64,000 bases of DNA from Eucommia ulmoides (Eukaryota > Streptophyta > Magnoliopsida > Garryales > Eucommiaceae), in assembly GCA_016647705.1 (NCBI GenBank), contig CM028327.1, positions 43,526,017 through 43,590,016 of the forward strand. Direction: 5' to 3'. Shown here in pieces: positions 2,999 to 58,800 of this stretch. The first letter of the stretch is position 1; every line of letters begins with the position of its first letter. A program made the position numbers and the translations under genes. The notes under the pieces were generated by a model. That model was not told the DNA's origin and made no database searches. It worked only from the letters and a program-made list of their open reading frames with translations.

Positions 2999-5900
2999 AA
3001 ATCTAATGAGCCTAACTCACTCTCAAAAGACGCCTTGTAAGATGAGGATTGCCTTAGGCTTTATATATAGCTCAGGATCAAGTAACACAACAAGCGAAGT
3101 GGGATTCAACATGTCCCCTCATGCACATGGTGGACTTTTTGACAAACCACTACGAACGGATATCAGGGAAAAGGCCCAACATCAATGTGAAATTCAACAC
3201 ACCCAACATCAAACAAGAGACTTTGCTCTGATATCACGTAGTAACTCAGTAAGCCTAACTCACTCTTAAAAGACGTCTTGTAAGATGAGGATTGCCCTAG
3301 ACTTTATATATAGATTAGGATCAGGTAACACTAACAATGTGGGATCCAACAATATATATATATATATATATAGATGATCCTAAGCTGCAATGTTAGAATG
3401 TAAAAGTAAAATTAGCATCATAGTAGTTTATGAAATGAAAAAAATAAAAATTTAGATAAAGCAATACTCAATTAATGTACTTGTTATTGAGAAAGATGAC
3501 AGGATAATTTTGTGAAAATATGATCTTTCCACAGGCCCAGAACGTTTTCTCAAACCAAAATAGAACAGAAATAACACGACGAATTTTAGCATGTAAAACC
3601 CTCCTCAATTGAAGGTAAAAACCACAGGACTCGTAGGTCACTTAAATTTTCCACTATAATAAATAATGGGATTACAAACCTCACACTTTGGTGGATCTCT
3701 CAAACAATACACAAAGATATTGTCTTCAATTTGTAGGTAAAACTTCACAAATTGGCTCTCACTAATCTTCCAAAAAAATTGGGGTTTTCTCTTACTTTCT
3801 CTCTCTACAATTTTCTGTGTAGAGAACTTATTAGCTTCTGCTTGCTCATCTCCTCTATTTATAGAGAAGAGATTGAGCAGATTTCAGTCTGAACAAATCT
3901 TGAAAATGATCAAGATTTGAGGTGCAACTTCAGACTCTTCATGTACAGCAGCCTTCCCATTGTAAAAAATTGTGAGCTCTCTGGATCGTTTTTCTTCCTT
4001 CACATGTGCAATCATCTTTTCCTTTTTACTTGTACTGCATTTGTTGACTTTTGCCTTTTTTTTCTTTTGGCCTTTTGTGGACTTTTGTTGAGTTAATTGT
4101 ATCCACCCAAATTTGGAAGTGATAATTGAACCCAACAAATCTCCCCCTCACGACCAATTTGGGAATGAAGCTAAACCTGCAACCTCCTTACAGACTTCTA
4201 GCTTTTCTTTGGGTAGATCTTTCGTCATCATGTTAACCCCGTTATCATTGGTGTAGATCTTCTCAAGTTGTAGCAACTTGTTATCATCGATGTGTTTAGA
4301 CTTCGAGTGAAAAGTCAGGTTCTTGATGAGGTGGATAGCACTCTGACTATCGCGGTGGAGAGTATACTTCTCTTGATTCTAACCCAACTCTTGTAGAAAC
4401 TTCTTCCTCCACAGGATCTCCTTACATCCTTCAGTGATTGCAATGTATTCTGCTTCTGTGGTGGATAAGGCAACACATTTTTGTAAACGTGATTGCCACG
4501 AAACAGCTCCCCCTACAAATGTTATCAAGTATCCTGATATGGATTTTCTCGAAACCACATCGCCAGCCACATCTGCATTTGTATGTCCTTCCAATACGGG
4601 TTTTCCATTGCCAAAACATAAACAATGATTGGATGTCCCCCTGAGATACCTGAGTACCCCTTTGACTGTTTCCCAAAGTTCCTTTCCAGGATTTGAAAGA
4701 AAACGGCTTGCAAAGCCAACTGCGTGAGCGATGTCTGGTCTGTTGCATACCATGGCGTACATCAAACTGTCAACCGCCGATACATAAGGCACCTTATCCA
4801 TTTCTAATTTTTCCTCCTTACTTAAAGGACATTATCTCGCACTAAGCTTGAAGTGACTTGCAAGTGGAGAACTAACAGCCTTAGTTTTACTCATGTTGAA
4901 TCTTTCAATGACCTTTTCAACATAGCATTCTTGAAATAGCCAAATTCTGCGATTCTGCCTATCACGGGTAATCGTCATGCCAAAAATTTGTTTTGTTGCT
5001 CCTAAGTCTTTCATTGCAAAGGATTTGCTCAACTCTTTCTTCAACTTGTTAATTTTGGCGCTGTCACGGCCAAAGATTAACATATCATCAACATAGAGTA
5101 GAAGAATGATAAAGTCACCATCAGAAATTTCTTGATGAAGACGCAGTGATCCGCCGTTATTCAGTTGTACTTATTTTTCTCCATAAATGAGTCAAACTTT
5201 TTAAACCACTGTCTTGTGTCTGTTTTAGACCATACAAGTTTTTCTTCAGTCTGCACATTAGTTTCTCTTTTCCTTTGACTAGGAAACTTTCGCGTTACTC
5301 CATGTAAATTTCCTCGTCAAGAGCTCCATGCAAAAATGCAGTTTTTACGTCAATTTATTCAACCTCCAGATTAAGACTGGATGCAAGGCCAATAACAACT
5401 CGGATCGAAGACATTTTCACCACGGGTGAAAATATTTTGTCAAAATCAACACTTTTCCTCTGCCCGAATCCTTTCACAAGCAATCTTGCTTTGTAACGTG
5501 GTTGTGAGTTATGTTCTTTATTTTTTATCATATACACCCACTTATTCTTGAGAACTTTCCTACTCTGCGATAGTTTCACCAGATCAAATGTATGGTTCTC
5601 ATGCAAGGATTTCATCTCTTCTTGCATGACTTTCAACCACTCACCTCTATGTTGATCTGCAACAAGTTCTTCATAACTCTCAGGTTCTCCCCCTTCAGTG
5701 AGCATCACATACTCATGAAGAGAATATTTGCAACTCGATTATCACTCTCGGGTAGATCTTCTCGGTTCTTGTTGGACTTGTTCCAGAATCGATTCTGGTT
5801 CCGAACTGCTAGCTGGTAGAGCCACATCATCAGGATCTAGTATTGTTCCCTCATCACCAGAATTTATTGGTGAAGGGGAGATTTGTTGGGTTCAATCATC

Positions 5901-8900
5901 ACTCCCAAATTTGAATGGATGCAATTAACTCAACAAAAGTCCACAAAAGGCAAAAAAAAAAAAAAAAAGTCAACAAATACAGTACAAAGGAAAAGATGTT
6001 TGCACATGTGAAGGAAGAAAAACGATCCAGAGAGCTCACAATTTTTTACAGTGGGAAGACTGTTACACATAAAGAGTCTGAAGTTGCGCCTCAAATCTTG
6101 ATCCTTTTCAAGATTTGTTCAGACTAAAATCTGCTCAATCTCTTCTCTATAAATAGAGGAGATCCAAGGAGAAGTTAAGAAGTTCTCTACACAGAAAATT
6201 GTAGAGAGAGAAAGTGAGAGAAAACCCCAATTTTTTTGGAAGATTAATGAGAGCTAATTTGTGAAATTTTACCCACAAATTGAAGATAATATATGTGTAT
6301 ACTGTTTGAGAGATCTACCAAAGTGTGAGGTTGTATTGTTTGAGAGATCCACTAAAGTGTGAGGTTTGTAATCCCATTATTTATTATAGTGAAAAATTTA
6401 AGTGGTCTACGGGTCCCGTGATTTTTACCTTCAATTGATCAAATTGACTGCATTTAACTATGCAAATTGGAAGTGGAGATGGAAGATCTTTTGTACATAA
6501 AAGATCTATGGAAACCCATTGTAATGCCAACACAGGAGGCAGCATCGACAACGGATGACAAAGCCGGCGAAACAACAACATCAACCACGAGCACATTGAC
6601 AACCCCATCAGACGTTGATTGGTCCGTGCAGAACCGGAAATGTGCTGCCCAAATCCGGCAATGGATTGACAAAAGCATTTTTCAAAATTTTGCTAATGAA
6701 TATGATGCTTATGCTCTTTGACAAAAGTTGGAAAAAATGTATGCAAGGACAACCGCACATAATAAAGTAAATTTGATGCGACGATTAGTCAATCTGAAAT
6801 ACAAATATGGAAGCAGTGTATCGGAACATATGAGCAAGTTCCAAGACATTATTAATCAACTCAATTCTATGAAAGTGATTGTAGATGACGAGTTGCAAGC
6901 GTTGCTGATGTTGAGTTCTCTACCAAATAGTTGGAACACATTAGTCGTGTCAGTTAGCAACTCTGCTCCAGAGGAAAACTTACCGTGGATATGGTAAAAG
7001 ACAAAATGTTAAACAAAGAGTCCAGACGAAAAGACGAAGGATACACTCCTGAGTCTGAAGTGCTTGTCTCAGAAAAGCAAAGCAAGCAAGAAAGGCGTGG
7101 GAGAAACAGAAGTCGAAATCCCCACGATCAAGAAAGATGACGATCTAAATCCAAATTTAGATTTGACAAGAAGTGTCATCACTGTGGCAAACCCGGACAT
7201 TTCATTCGAGAATGTCGAAAGTTGAAGGCGAAGCAATCCCCAAATCAGGAAGCCGAAACCCGAACAAATGACACTGCTATTGTCATTAATGAGGCTGTCA
7301 TTGTTCGAGATGATAACTACGTCAATCTTGTATCGCAAGATTCCACCTGGGTTATTGACTCAGGAACCTCCTTCCATGTCACGTCACGACTAGATTTCTT
7401 CTCATCTTACACTCAAGGAGAATACGAACGTGTGAAAATGGGAAATGATGGTGCATCTAAAATTGTTGGTACTATCAGCAATGTTTGTCTCGCATCCAAT
7501 CTTGGATGCAAGCTACTTTTGAAAGACGTGAGACATGTCCCTGATCTCCGTCTCAATTTAATCTCTACCGGGAAGCTTGACGACAAAGGCTATAACAATT
7601 ACTTTGGTGAAGACAAATGGAAACTTGCCACAAAGGTAATTTGATGGTAGCAAAAGGCAAGAAAGACACATCTCTATATCACAGAAGCCAAGTTATGTAG
7701 ATGAGAGGTAAATACAACTAGGAAAGAAGTCCCCACCGAGCTATGGCATAAGCGGCTCGGACACATGAGTGAGAAAGGTCTTAAAATCTTTTCTAAGAAA
7801 AAGCTCTTGCCAGGAATGAAAGATACACCCTTGCAAACCTATGTTGATTGTGTTGTGGGAAAGCAACATAGAGTTACATTTCAAACTCATCCACCATCTA
7901 GAAGGAAGAATATTCTAGATCTGATATACACAAATGTTTGCTCAATGAGTCATAAGTCATTGGGAGGTGCTCTTCACTTCATGACTTTCATTGACGACCA
8001 CTCTAGAAAAGTGTGGGCCTTTGCCTTAAAAACCAAAGATCAAGTGGTGGAAATTTTCAGGCAGTTTCATGTAAAAGTTGAGAGAAAAATTAGCAGATAT
8101 TTGAAGTGCGTACGTGCAGACAACGGTGGTGAATACCACGGACCATTGCTGGAAAAGTAAATACCTAAGACACCTCAGCATAACGGTGTCGCAGAAAGGA
8201 TGAACAGAACCATCTGTGAAAAAGTCAGATATATGCTGTCAGATGCAAAGTTGTCGAACTCCTTTTGAGAGGAGGCAATGAGGACAGTAGTTGATTTAAT
8301 CAACTTTTATCCATCAGTTTCACTGAACTATGACGTACCAGAAAGAGTCTAGACGGAGAAAGACGTTTCGTACAAACACCTAAAAGTGTTTGGCTTCAGA
8401 GTGTTTGTTCACATTCCAAAAGATGAGAGGTCCAAGTTGGATGGAAAGACAAAGTAATGCATCTTTGTGAGATACGCCCATGAAGAGTTCAGCTACAGAC
8501 TAGCAAAAGGATCATCAGAAGTAGAGACATGGTATTTCTTGAAGATCAAATAGCTGGAGACTTTGAGAAACCAAAAAAGACACAACCAAATGAATTTCCA
8601 GTAAATCTCAGACTTAACTCTTCTCCAACACTTATTAACAATCTCATGCTAAGACAGAGAAACTAAAAACAGTTGAAATAAATCTCTTGCTACAACATCA
8701 TCCAACTATGATCAACATTTTTATAGTTTTTCACTTAATCAAACCTATTTATCAATTGAAACAAAAAATAATACAAAGAGATTTTTACCTTGATAAGAAG
8801 AATGATGAAATTTGTAGAACCGATTTCGAGGGCAAGGCAATAGCGAAAACGAATCTGAATTTCGCACTGAGCTGCCTTCCATTTGCTTTTGTTGTTTTCG

Positions 8901-50429: not shown

Positions 50430-50712
50430 AGGTGTTAGTCCGATCGATAAGGGGAGATGTCTCTTTATTTGTCAAATATGTGTATGCTCTTGGAGAACAC
50501 TGTAGTAATTAAATCTTGAATATATGAGTTCGATGTAGAAGAATGCGTCTTCAAGAGGAATACTACATTAATTAAATCTTGAATTTAACCTTGAATACAT
50601 CAGGCCGATGTAGGTAAATGCGTCCTTAAGAACATCCGGAAAAGTAATTAGTCGAGATGCGCATACATTGACTAGACACTCCTTGGCGTAAAACAAATAA
50701 ATAAATAAAAAA
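50430..50712 (+). mobile_element. SINE-like element, with internal duplication
   Basis: Box-A-like TTAGTCCGATCGATAAGGGG at the left, a 3' end GTCGAGATGCGCATACATTG and an A-rich tail. Part of the interior (ATTAAATCTTGAAT, CGATGTAG..AATGCGTC) occurs twice. Shorter 3' ends of the same type lie at 53400-53510 (SAHH intron 2) and 58935-59085. Confidence 0.45.
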
Positions 50713-51358
50713 TAAACTTGTAAAATTATGTTTATTTATTTACTTTTTTTTGGAGATTTTAGAAATGGAAAGTTTGTGTTGTGTATATTTAGCCCACAAA
50801 TTGGGGACAAATTATAGTAATGCTTTGACTTATTTTTCTACCAAAATATGTTCATATCAAATTTTATATTTTGAGATTGAATTATCTATTCGGTTGACTA
50901 TTCATAATTTTAACAGATCTTTCTACAAATACTTGACGAATAATTTTTACGCTAATAAACACGCTGAATTTCAGACTGGATAAGAATAGTGCGATTCCAC
51001 GTTTTGTATTTGCTAAGAAGTTTTACTCGTGAACAAATATTAATTATAGTAGTAAATATAAACTTTATATTTAGTTAAAATGTAATCTATTTGATATTAA
51101 TTGATAAATTAAATTTTATCATAATAAAAAATAAATTGTTTTAAAAATTATTCTATTAATTTTTCCATTATTGAGAGGTTGTAAGGGTAAAATGGTAATT
51201 GTACACAACCCACCAACCGACCCGACCTATTATCACCATCCATTTCCCCGTGAAAATCTGTTTAAATAGCAGTCGATTCCCCTACCGTTTCCTTGCCCAA
51301 TCCTCACTCTCTGTCTAACCCTAGAGAGAGAATTTCAGATCTCGGAAATTCGGAAAAA
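50713..51358. promoter_or_regulatory. SAHH upstream region
   Basis: AT-rich DNA. The stretch TTTAAATAGC (about 51261-51270) is a plausible TATA box roughly 95 bp before the ATG and is followed by a C/T-rich leader (CCCTACCGTTTCCTTGCCC, CTCACTCTCTGTC). The exact transcription start is not defined. Confidence 0.4.
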
Positions 51359-53905
<2,547 letters not shown>

Positions 53906-53984
53906 AGAGAGAGTGAAAGATTCGGAAGGAAATACTCAAATATGGATCATTTTGTTGTTTTTTGACATTTTTTTTTTGGAAGAT

Positions 53985-55080
53985 GTGGTTTTTGTTGTTG
54001 TTTTGGTCAAATGTTCGGAAAAAATGACCATGAAAAATGAGATTTGTATTTGAATAATGTTGATTTTGAGCATGATGGTGGGAGGATGTGTTTAATATCA
54101 TTGTAGCTCTAGGTTTGTCTTAATTGCGTTCCCTTACTACTAAGAAAATTGAAATGAAATGCAATCTTTGTTGTTGTTTCTTTCACCTTCTGTTGAACTT
54201 GCCAAAACTTGGTTTATTTGAAAATTGTTGTTGGGATAAATGACTTTAGATGATGGATTTTTGTGCTTTTCAAATTATGATTTTAAAAAATGGATGATGC
54301 TATTGTTTTTTGTTTTTGTTCTCTTATTTCTGTTTCTGTTGCGCTCATTTAGAAGTAATTCTTGAATTCTTTAAAAATTTGAGAAACCCACTACTGCTCA
54401 AAGCAAGAGAACCATGAAAACACCATCAGAAAACACATAATTTTCTTCCAGCGAAGACAAGGGATGGCCATAGCAAAGTTGCGGATTCTTCATCTTTTTA
54501 TTCTTTCATTCCTTCAGATTTACTTAAACGAAATCACCTTTGGGTTCGATGATGGTGGTATGCTCGGTGGTTGTGGAGTAGAAGATGAAGAAGAGGAAAT
54601 GACGTAAGATAAAAGAGAAAATGAAAAGAAAAAAGAAAAACCAATTGAGAAGATGAGGAGGAAAAATAGAGAAAGGGTAATTTGGTCATTCACTTATTTG
54701 AATTATTTTATTATTTTTATGGTCTCAATTAGTAAGAGCAAAATGGACAATTCATTAAAAAAAAACTCTAGAAGGATGGCCATGGTAGTTTTGAAAATTA
54801 GGGGGTGTATGTGGAATATCATTATAGTTAAGGGGGTGTAAGGTGAAAGAAACAACAACAAAGATTGCATTTCATTTCAATTTTCTTAGTAATAAGGGAA
54901 CGCAATTAAGACAAACCTAGAGCTACAATGATATTAAACACATCCTCCCACCATCATGCTCAAAATCCACATTATTCAAATACAAATCTCATTTTTCATG
55001 GTCATTTTTTCCGAACATTTGACCAAAACAACAACAAAAACCACTACTGCTCAAAGCAAGAGAACCCTGAAAACACCATC
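53985..55080. repeat. 205-bp inverted duplication of the SAHH 3' UTR plus 40-bp direct copy
   Basis: 53985-54189, starting 80 bp after the SAHH stop codon, is repeated in reverse complement at 54840-55044. The arms are equal in length, differ at only 2 of 205 positions and have no gaps; the spacer is 650 bp. The right arm ends in CCAC, and from that CCAC (55041) the sequence continues for 40 bp as a direct copy of spacer sequence at 54388-54427 (CCACTACTGCTCAAAGCAAG...), with one mismatch. The shared CCAC is microhomology at the joint. If transcription of SAHH ran through to 55.05 kb, the RNA could form a 205-bp hairpin. Confidence 0.95.
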
Positions 55081-55899
55081 TTTCCCATACCTAAAATACC
55101 CCTTAAGCAATTGAATCCCGAATCCCTTCATTAACGGTCTAGGTTTCGTAATTTTTTGAATTCATCTTTCAATTTGCCTTTTATTCTTCATCAAGTCAAA
55201 AAATTTGCATTCAAATTTTCTATATATATATTTTATGTAATTAATCAAGCCAAACAATTGTATTTCTCTCTTTATTTTGACAAAGGGTGGCGATTTTGAC
55301 AAAAATATAATTTTTAGACACTATGAAAAATTCGTCAGATAGAAAATTAACAGATTTGTCACATAACATAATAAAACTTTTTAGACATTACATAATAAAA
55401 TTCTCGGATTATTCTTGTATGTTATAATATTGCTATCACAATGAATATTTATTTCGAAACATAGGTCGTTGTTTGTGTGTGTGAAAAATTAAAATATGTT
55501 TCCAAAATTATATTTCCTTTCTTAATGCTAATTAGTCTATTGTGTTTGATGTGAATTTTTAAATTAATAGAAAATTGAAATTCACATCAACAATTTTGAA
55601 GAGCTAGACAAGAAGATACAATGAAAGAGACAATAGGTATGAACTTCATCCATTATGGAAAGGATAATTAGCTACAAGGATTGATTTCACCTTTCGTCCA
55701 ACAATATACATAGCTAGAATGCCTTCATCTAGACAACCGAATCTAAGCTTGCGTTTGGGTGAGATATTTGAAGATGAAATTTGATTTCGACAACAGATTT
55801 TTTATTTTTTATTTTAAAATATCAAAATATCTTCTTCACATATTTCAATGAAACCCCACCTGAGAGGTGTATGATTCTCCAAAACTCGTCTCTACATTC

Positions 55900-58800
55900 A
55901 ACACACCAAAATTTTGGGATTTTCCCCCTCCTAAAGTGTGGGTGATTATGTGAACTCTGAGATTTGTCAAATTGCATATTTAAACCATCAATTTCACATA
56001 TGTTTCAACCTAAAAATTGAAAATATTATTAATCATTTTGGATTGAAAAATGGACTGTGCCCAATACGTGACCTTCTAATCCAAATATTTTTGTCATTTT
56101 ATTAGTCCCCTAAACCTAAGATGTTTTCCTCGAATCTTTCCATAACAACGATTCGTCTGAAAAATAAAAGAGAAAAGCCAAAACTGTTGTCAGGAAAAAC
56201 TTCTCAGATTTAGTGGTGTTGATTTTAAGATTTTGATTAACAGTTAAATGTTGATGTTTTTGGTAGAACTAATATATTTTTTGAGTGTTTCAATTTAAAA
56301 AGTTTCAGACTACATCATGAAGTAATTGTAAAGGATGCAAAGACAATGCAGAAAAGATAACATCATAAAGAAATTGTGAATGATGCGGAGACGGATGCTA
56401 AGAAATTGAAGATTCCGAAGAATCTAGATAAAAACAACTTTAATTTATTTTTACTCTTAATGTATCTTGATTAGGATCACACATGACATGAAAATGATTT
56501 TATGTTTATGTGTGTTTTGATAGGATCATAATTAGTGAAATTATTTGCTCCTATGTGTAATTAAAAAAGAAATAAAGATAATTGATTAAAATTGATTTTA
56601 AAATTTTAGTGGAACTAACCGAGAAAAGAAATTAGTTAAAGGGGTGAAAATGTCAAAGAAAATAATTAAGGAAAAGAGTTCCAACATGGGCAGTCGACAA
56701 ATAAGTTGACTTGTGCTTAAAAGAAGAAGTCTCTGAATCTCCCGGTTAACAGTTAGGTCGACCTATGCTTAAAAGATAAACTCTCTGTATTACTAGGTCG
56801 ACAGATAAGTCGACTTATAAAAGTTTTTGAATCGATAAGTCGACAAGTAAGTCGACTTATGACGATGGAATTTTGTCTTGGGCTACACTCTGAATTGGGA
56901 GATTGACCGATAGATGTGTGTCTGTCGACTGATGGCCAGTTTCGAATTTTGAGAATTTTGATTTAAATACTAGCCGTTAACTAGCCGTTATTTGTTTACT
57001 TGATTAAGAGATTTTAGGGATATAGATATTTTAAAGATATGGTATTTCTATTTGAATATCCCTATTGATATGGTATATATATATTTTAAGTATTTCTCAA
57101 ATTGGTACATTTAATTCTTTTTATCCTATTGATTTGAATTTGAGAAATATTTAAGGGACTAATTTAAATGTTTTGAAATCCATAATTAAGTCAAATATAC
57201 CTAAAATAAAAGGAATTAATATATGGGGTCTATAGGTGCTTTTTAGATACTTATCTTGTGGAAACTAGCCGTTGTAGGGCTTGTTTCAAGTGGCTATAAA
57301 TAGACCTAATGATTTCACATGTTAAAAAAATAATATCAAGAACTATTTAGTTCATAAACTTTTATAAGAATTATCATTCTGATATTATTTTGAGAGATCA
57401 AATTGTGAGATCAATTGTTGAAGAGTTTTTGAGTTAAAACGTTGATTGTGTAAGCGTCACCGATTTTAACTGTCTAGCGTTTCAATCTATAATTCTTTGG
57501 TGTTATTCTGGTGAGATCTTTCCAAGCTATTAATCTTTATTGCATATCTATTTTTCTATATTTGCTTGATTGATAAGATCTTGATAAAATCGTTTTCTAA
57601 ACTTTAAATTGCATAAAAGTATTTTAAAACGATTTTTGGTAAAAATCTGATTATATACTTATTTGTGTGCTATCTGTATCTATTATAATCAAATTTTTAT
57701 ATTTTCTTGGTGAAAGTGTTCCAAGCATATTATTAATTGAGTTTATTGCTGTCATTGCTTGCTTGGTTAATTGATTGTATGAGAAATCGTTTTTTAACTT
57801 TAAAAGCATAAAAAATCTTTTAAAACGATTTGTGTGATAATTTGATTACGTGCTCAATTTTGTACTACCCGCATTATTTTTATAATCAAATTTTTGTTTC
57901 CTCACATTAATTTTATCACTAGTAAATATCGGGACATTAATTGAGTTTAAATTGATTTGAGGTGGTAGAAGTTCTGATTGAGAATAACTTATCAATTTAT
58001 TGTAATTGATGAGTTGAGTGTCGAATTATATACTATTGGGGGTGTTTAATCTAGGGTAACCGGTTTCAATCTCTTCCGGTAAAGAGATTGAGATTTTGAT
58101 ATTTGCCTAAGGTATAAAAAGATTAGGTGTTAATTCTTCATTGATTGAATTTGTGAGTGAATTATAACGGTTCAATCCTTACCGGGTAAAAGAATATTTG
58201 GAGTGTTTGTGAGGTTTTGATTCTTTAGCCTAAGGTACAAAAAGAATTAGGTTATTCTTAAGCCTGTAAAAAGTAGAGGTTATTCCTAAGCCTGAGAAAA
58301 AGAATTTGTAAAAGTTGACTCTGAGGCTGCGAAAAGAATCATTGTGTAAATGTTTGATTCCTACCTGTTTAAAGGAATCTTAGTGATTAGTGGGTGCGAA
58401 TCTCCGTGGGACTCGAATGACTAGATTAACCAAAATTAACTTGGTGAATCAGGATAAATTTCTGGTGTGTTTTTTTTTTTTTACATTGTTTATTTTTGGT
58501 TGTTTGGTATGCATCTAGTTAATAATATATTTCCGTTGCTATATAGAGATAATAATTAATTTATGATTAAAACTAATTGTTTGATATTTGAAGTATTTTC
58601 TTAGATAATTTTTTAATACTACCCAATACACCTTCTCTCTTGGGTAGCTCACTGGGCCAATAATTGGACTGCAGATATGACGAAAATATCCCCATTAGAA
58701 GGTCGCGTGTTGAAAACAACCAATTTTTCGTCATAAATCATTAACAAAGTTTTCGATTTTGTGAGATCAAAACAAATGTGAATCTTGAGGGATCAAATGT

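Follow-up and report, generated by a model that had tools for sequence, protein, structure and literature searches.

A young inverted copy of SAHH 3′-flanking sequence beside a broken transposon end in Eucommia ulmoides: a probable DNA-repair scar

The window analysed here is a 64-kb stretch of the Eucommia ulmoides genome assembly (947 Mb, 391 contigs), in which the SAHH gene was recognised through the Pfam domains PF05221 and PF00670. Its coding sequence is split by introns and ends with a stop codon at 53903-53905. No second SAHH locus came up when the assembly was searched with 225 amino acids of the first coding block or with the 108-aa last block; the latter query gave one weak extra match (E 7e-4, 34% identity, four stops). 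Judged from the first and last coding blocks, SAHH thus appears to be single-locus in this assembly. An open frame matching serine hydroxymethyltransferase (PF00464; 43674-44411, reverse strand), another one-carbon enzyme, is located about 7 kb from SAHH. Downstream of SAHH, the only recognised gene among the open frames scanned encodes a RALF peptide (PF05498; 59243-59818, reverse strand); it is convergent with SAHH and lies more than 4 kb from the second of the two arms described below. The features of SAHH and its 3′ flank are the following.

51266 to 53905, forward strand: approximate extent of the SAHH gene
51266 to 52105, 52913 to 53347 and 53519 to 53905, forward strand: open frames (stop to stop) that contain the SAHH coding blocks
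53985 to 54189, forward strand: arm 1, SAHH 3′ UTR or immediate downstream sequence, the likely template
54190 to 54383, forward strand: intervening sequence that separates arm 1 from the transposon, left uncopied by the event and with no other copy found in the assembly
54384 to 54842, forward strand: remnant of a dispersed transposon that carries terminal inverted repeats (TIRs), probably a non-autonomous Mutator-like element (MULE); its 5′ part is missing and its 3′ end is broken inside the terminal inverted repeat
54840 to 55044, reverse strand: arm 2, inverted copy of arm 1
55041 to 55080, forward strand: 40-bp direct copy of transposon positions 54388-54427

Arm 1 and arm 2 are reverse complements over 205 bp, with 99.0% identity, no gaps, and two mismatches (54061/54968 and 54137/54892). 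Both BLAST and a repeat search recovered the pair as the earlier note had described it; in the repeat search it extends to 216 nt at 97%, with 650 nt between the arms. The BLAST E value of 4e-100 excludes chance. Arm 1 had been placed just after the SAHH stop codon, which is correct as to the side and approximate as to the distance, since 80 nt separate its start from the stop; for arm 2 the distance is 935 nt. A search of 53905-54400 for poly(A)-like hexamers gave two (at 54053 and 54153), both inside arm 1, so that a normal SAHH transcript could end short of arm 2.

According to BLAST, no inverted pair in the window other than the SAHH arms exceeds 90% identity at E<=1e-8. At the opposite end of the window, a longer inverted pair (3605-4151 / 5870-6438; 581 aligned columns, 85.5%) is more diverged than the SAHH arms. 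A base-rate sample for inverted pairs of at least 80 bp and at least 93% identity was taken from 48 overlapping and transposon-biased loci (154 kb); 9 of them contained such a pair, in every case the window's own, and none contained any other. No other copy of the arm and its surrounding sequence was found in the 947-Mb assembly in a search that skipped very common words and scored the best candidates only. Among the titles of related literature listed, none names the locus.

The sequence between the arms had been treated as neutral spacer, a view that does not hold, because 54384-54842 is a truncated transposon and the 40-bp direct copy is itself transposon sequence. The assembly search with the whole interval listed 45 matches (the best 40 of 526 candidates being scored), three of which are the window itself or its arms, while the other 42 cover 54384 to about 54846 and are spread over 17 contigs. 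A search with 54670-54860 listed 40 matches, one of them the window (best 40 of 439 candidates scored). The ends of 30 of these places, the window among them, were inspected; beyond the window's switch point, 28 of the 29 others carry the family sequence onward as ...GTAAGTGGTATTA(ACCC) or a close variant. Across the switch point the typical family end reads ...GGGGGTGTAAG-TGGTATTAACCC, with the copy L024 as the exception. The window element stops inside the 3′ terminal repeat and lacks roughly the final 12 nt of the family.

TIRs of 21-31 bp were found at both ends in 7 of the 36 loci tested (33 places, with the 1.5-kb flanks as the limit); in these seven, the same terminal sequence is present in inverted orientation 1.2-1.7 kb away, which is the element length. 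For the other 29 loci the second TIR was not seen within the 1.5-kb flanks examined. Target duplications of 8-10 bp are readable in four of the seven full copies (exactly 10 bp in two) and are absent or ambiguous in three. MULEs typically generate target site duplications of 9 bp (8-11). By its TIRs at both ends and its 8-10-bp target duplications, the dispersed family is most like a non-autonomous MULE. The window's stretch falls in the 3′ half of a 1285-bp copy that has both terminal repeats (L012). Among the matches listed, the closest full-length relative of the window element is 84% identical to it, and pieces reach up to 90%. Since this is far more divergence than between the arms, the transposon fragment is, as judged from these relatives, far older than the arms, and the idea that 54384-54842 is recent filler brought in from elsewhere was rejected on the same ground. 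With up to three mismatches allowed, no TIR was found for it in the window.

The two junctions of arm 2 were then compared with the transposon. At the left joint, arm 2 begins where the element breaks off inside its 3′ terminal repeat, and AAG is common to both, a match scored against the element's relatives and not against its own lost end. At the right joint, CCAC is common to arm 2 and to the start of the resident transposon fragment. The fusion through CCAC to a 40-bp direct copy, which had been pointed out earlier, is real, and the copy contains one mismatch. The direct pair as such spans 44 bp with two mismatches (54384-54427 / 55037-55080); after subtraction of the part that the arm explains, 40 bp with one mismatch are left (54388-54427 / 55041-55080). 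Random joints placed in 53900-55400 have at least 3 bp of microhomology in 8.4% of cases and at least 4 bp in 3.3%. The 3- and 4-bp microhomologies are thus mildly unlikely by chance and are supportive, not decisive; the CCAC that had been offered as evidence of template switching is weak when taken alone. The net product of the event is 238 bp (54843-55080) in which an inverted piece is followed by a direct one, each copied locally from a source within 1.1 kb.

The 40-bp copy and its source at 54388-54427 both carry G at a site where C is present in all four of the other family copies compared, so the copy was probably taken from the resident element of the window. By eye, each of the two also seems to lack one base relative to the family immediately before CTACTG (the aligner set no gap). 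At one further position, where the source now has A, the copy retains the C seen in three of the four other copies. The start of the 40-bp copy (55041) lies within about 4 bp of the transposon position at which the family homology of the resident fragment begins (54384-54388), a near-coincidence that the repair model presented below does not account for.

Several other origins for these pieces were considered and rejected. Arm 2 is not a retrocopy of SAHH mRNA, as there is no A-tract at its 3′ side and its left joint lies inside a transposon repeat, nor is it part of a mobile element, as other copies were not found in the assembly. A remnant of a second transposon insertion was likewise discarded for the 40-bp piece on account of the G that it shares with the resident copy (a single character state, which is not proof). 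The missing 5′ part of the transposon was sought in 54190-54383 by comparison with 600 nt upstream of four family copies; three of the four were no better than shuffles, and the fourth locus gave a 17-nt T/C-rich match that 1 of 200 shuffles equalled. When 55081-55700 was compared with ten loci as candidate transposon sequence, no score exceeded the best of 30 shuffles in any of them, and the assembly search found no other match for 55070-55600.

The low divergence had been interpreted as the sign of a recent event, with which the counts of 2/205 or 3/245 agree. At an assumed rate of 7e-9 substitutions per site per year, these values correspond to 0.7-0.9 My with a 95% range of about 0.1-2.5 My, and the event would thus be dated roughly to between 0.1 and 2.5 million years ago. 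Gene conversion between the arms could give them a falsely young look.

The structure is best explained as a DNA-repair scar, to which we assign a probability of about 0.65: after a break in or beside an old MULE, 238 bp of filler would have been supplied by copying within the same kilobase, first in inverted and then in direct orientation. The transposon end that is missing at the joint may reflect a break with a deletion. The initial lesion would have been a double-strand break (or a collapsed fork) within or adjoining the 3′ terminal repeat of the old MULE-like fragment downstream of SAHH. Repair synthesis would first have run along the SAHH 3′ UTR for 205 bp on the opposite strand, with AAG at the joint. 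It would then have changed template at CCAC, moving to the near end of the resident transposon fragment, of which 40 bp were copied forward before joining to the other chromosome end. The resulting compound filler would have replaced the last ~12 nt of the transposon together with some flank. The order of these steps is inferred, and synthesis may have followed SDSA or a Pol-theta-type filler pathway as opposed to template switching at a fork.

Filler of this kind is known from plants at maize wx, R-r, and p2/p1 and at rice excision sites, and consists of inserts copied from nearby with microhomology or none at the joints. The SAHH flank has the same composition, with pieces from at most 1.1 kb away, joints of AAG and CCAC, a two-piece mosaic, and a transposon with a lost end. 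In rice, 58 of 94 transposon excisions are quoted as having introduced filler of 1-123 bp (PMC4423477), and maize filler DNA is described as coming from close by and as sometimes being mosaic (PMC2686159). The length argues against the filler reading, as one piece here is 205 bp and inverted and thereby exceeds the ranges quoted for rice (1-123 bp) and maize (1-131 bp). In animals, single-copy captures by TIR transposons are reported mostly to resemble gap filling, over half of them coming from within 15 kb, and microhomology of 1-36 bp is given for at least one joint in 190 of 281 (PMC8277862). Pack-MULE and Pack-TIR gap-filling captures are comparable in that a TIR transposon lies beside host gene sequence from the same kilobase with microhomology at the joint. 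Unlike in those systems, the captured piece is not enclosed between two terminal repeats, and the window element, without both its ends, would not be expected to mobilise that piece. Moreover, the animal breakpoints are stated to lean to the element interior (PMC8277862), whereas the joint here is at the element's end, which would count against the analogy with filler or capture.

The earlier note had proposed replication template switching (FoSTeS/MMBIR), in which a fork would stall at the transposon terminal repeat, copy 205 bp backward and 40 bp forward, and then resume. Its account of back-then-forward copying with microhomology is a fair one, the two readable joints having 3 and 4 bp, and both inverted duplications and microhomology of 2-5 bp are on record for MMBIR junctions (PMC2621351). 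Fork switching and break repair with filler nevertheless lead to the same product, the local microhomology is just mildly unusual at the frequencies given above, and the shortness of the copied tracts (hundreds of bases) and the lost transposon end suit filler at least as well. Because the spacer is a transposon, the left joint lies in its terminal repeat, and the 40-bp piece is a copy of it, filling of a break beside a broken transposon end is at least as likely as a stalled fork, and the fork model is considered possible but the less likely of the two. Inverted repeats are also a known class of assembly artefact, and a fold-back or chimeric read could in principle have produced one here. Three mismatches separate the copies, the spacer is 650 bp long, and a second, direct copy of 40 bp is present; a fold-back read would not be expected to show any of this, and the joints are more complex than plain fold-backs, which makes an artefact very unlikely.

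A functional or nascent small-RNA locus would require that read-through SAHH transcripts form a 205-bp hairpin that is diced and feeds back on SAHH mRNA or on methylation of the 3′ region. The earlier note had raised such a hairpin, with small RNAs that would link silencing to methyl supply, and nothing in the sequence analyses supports this regulatory part, although the idea is physically possible. A transcript over both arms (1196 nt) is predicted to fold with the arms paired at an MFE of -483 kcal/mol, a value without shuffle comparison. Inverted duplications of target genes are known to give rise to young miRNA genes (PMC5388894); in Arabidopsis, inverted repeats close to genes are cited as often yielding 24-nt siRNAs (~486/634; cited in PMC12595863). 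At MIR163, a young MIR gene, an inverted copy of a gene piece likewise lies near that gene, and a MITE forms an inverted repeat adjoining HaWRKY6. Unlike in these two cases, arm 2 of SAHH lies in the 3′ flank beyond the poly(A)-like signals, and small-RNA output would be hypothetical here. The transcript would have to extend 1.1 kb beyond the stop codon and through both hexamers in arm 1, and no Rfam family reached its gathering score in 50500-57500. Harm from SAHH loss or antisense is furthermore described for Arabidopsis and tobacco, and the effects reported in plants include hypomethylation and developmental defects, yet co-silencing of SAHH in tomato is reported to raise immunity and drought tolerance (PMC5526918), so that the cost is not certain and a hairpin need not be harmful in every setting. 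A small-RNA locus of this kind is very improbable. RNA-directed DNA methylation itself needs methyl supply. A more specific proposal is that of a nascent silencing locus whose small RNAs, made from the arms, would turn SAHH down and thereby set up a loop in which methyl supply and RNA-directed DNA methylation restrain one another; it is highly improbable. The inverted repeat is most likely without function.

As a repair scar, the event belongs to a kind that is already known in plants, and the scar in the SAHH flank is real, young, and ordinary. If small RNAs ever arose from the arms, the apparently sole SAHH locus of the genome would be a target. Inverted gene copies may supply the starting material for some new hairpin RNA genes; as a scar whose age can be estimated, the SAHH flank cleanly illustrates one way in which the end of a defunct transposon could give rise to an inverted copy of an adjacent gene.
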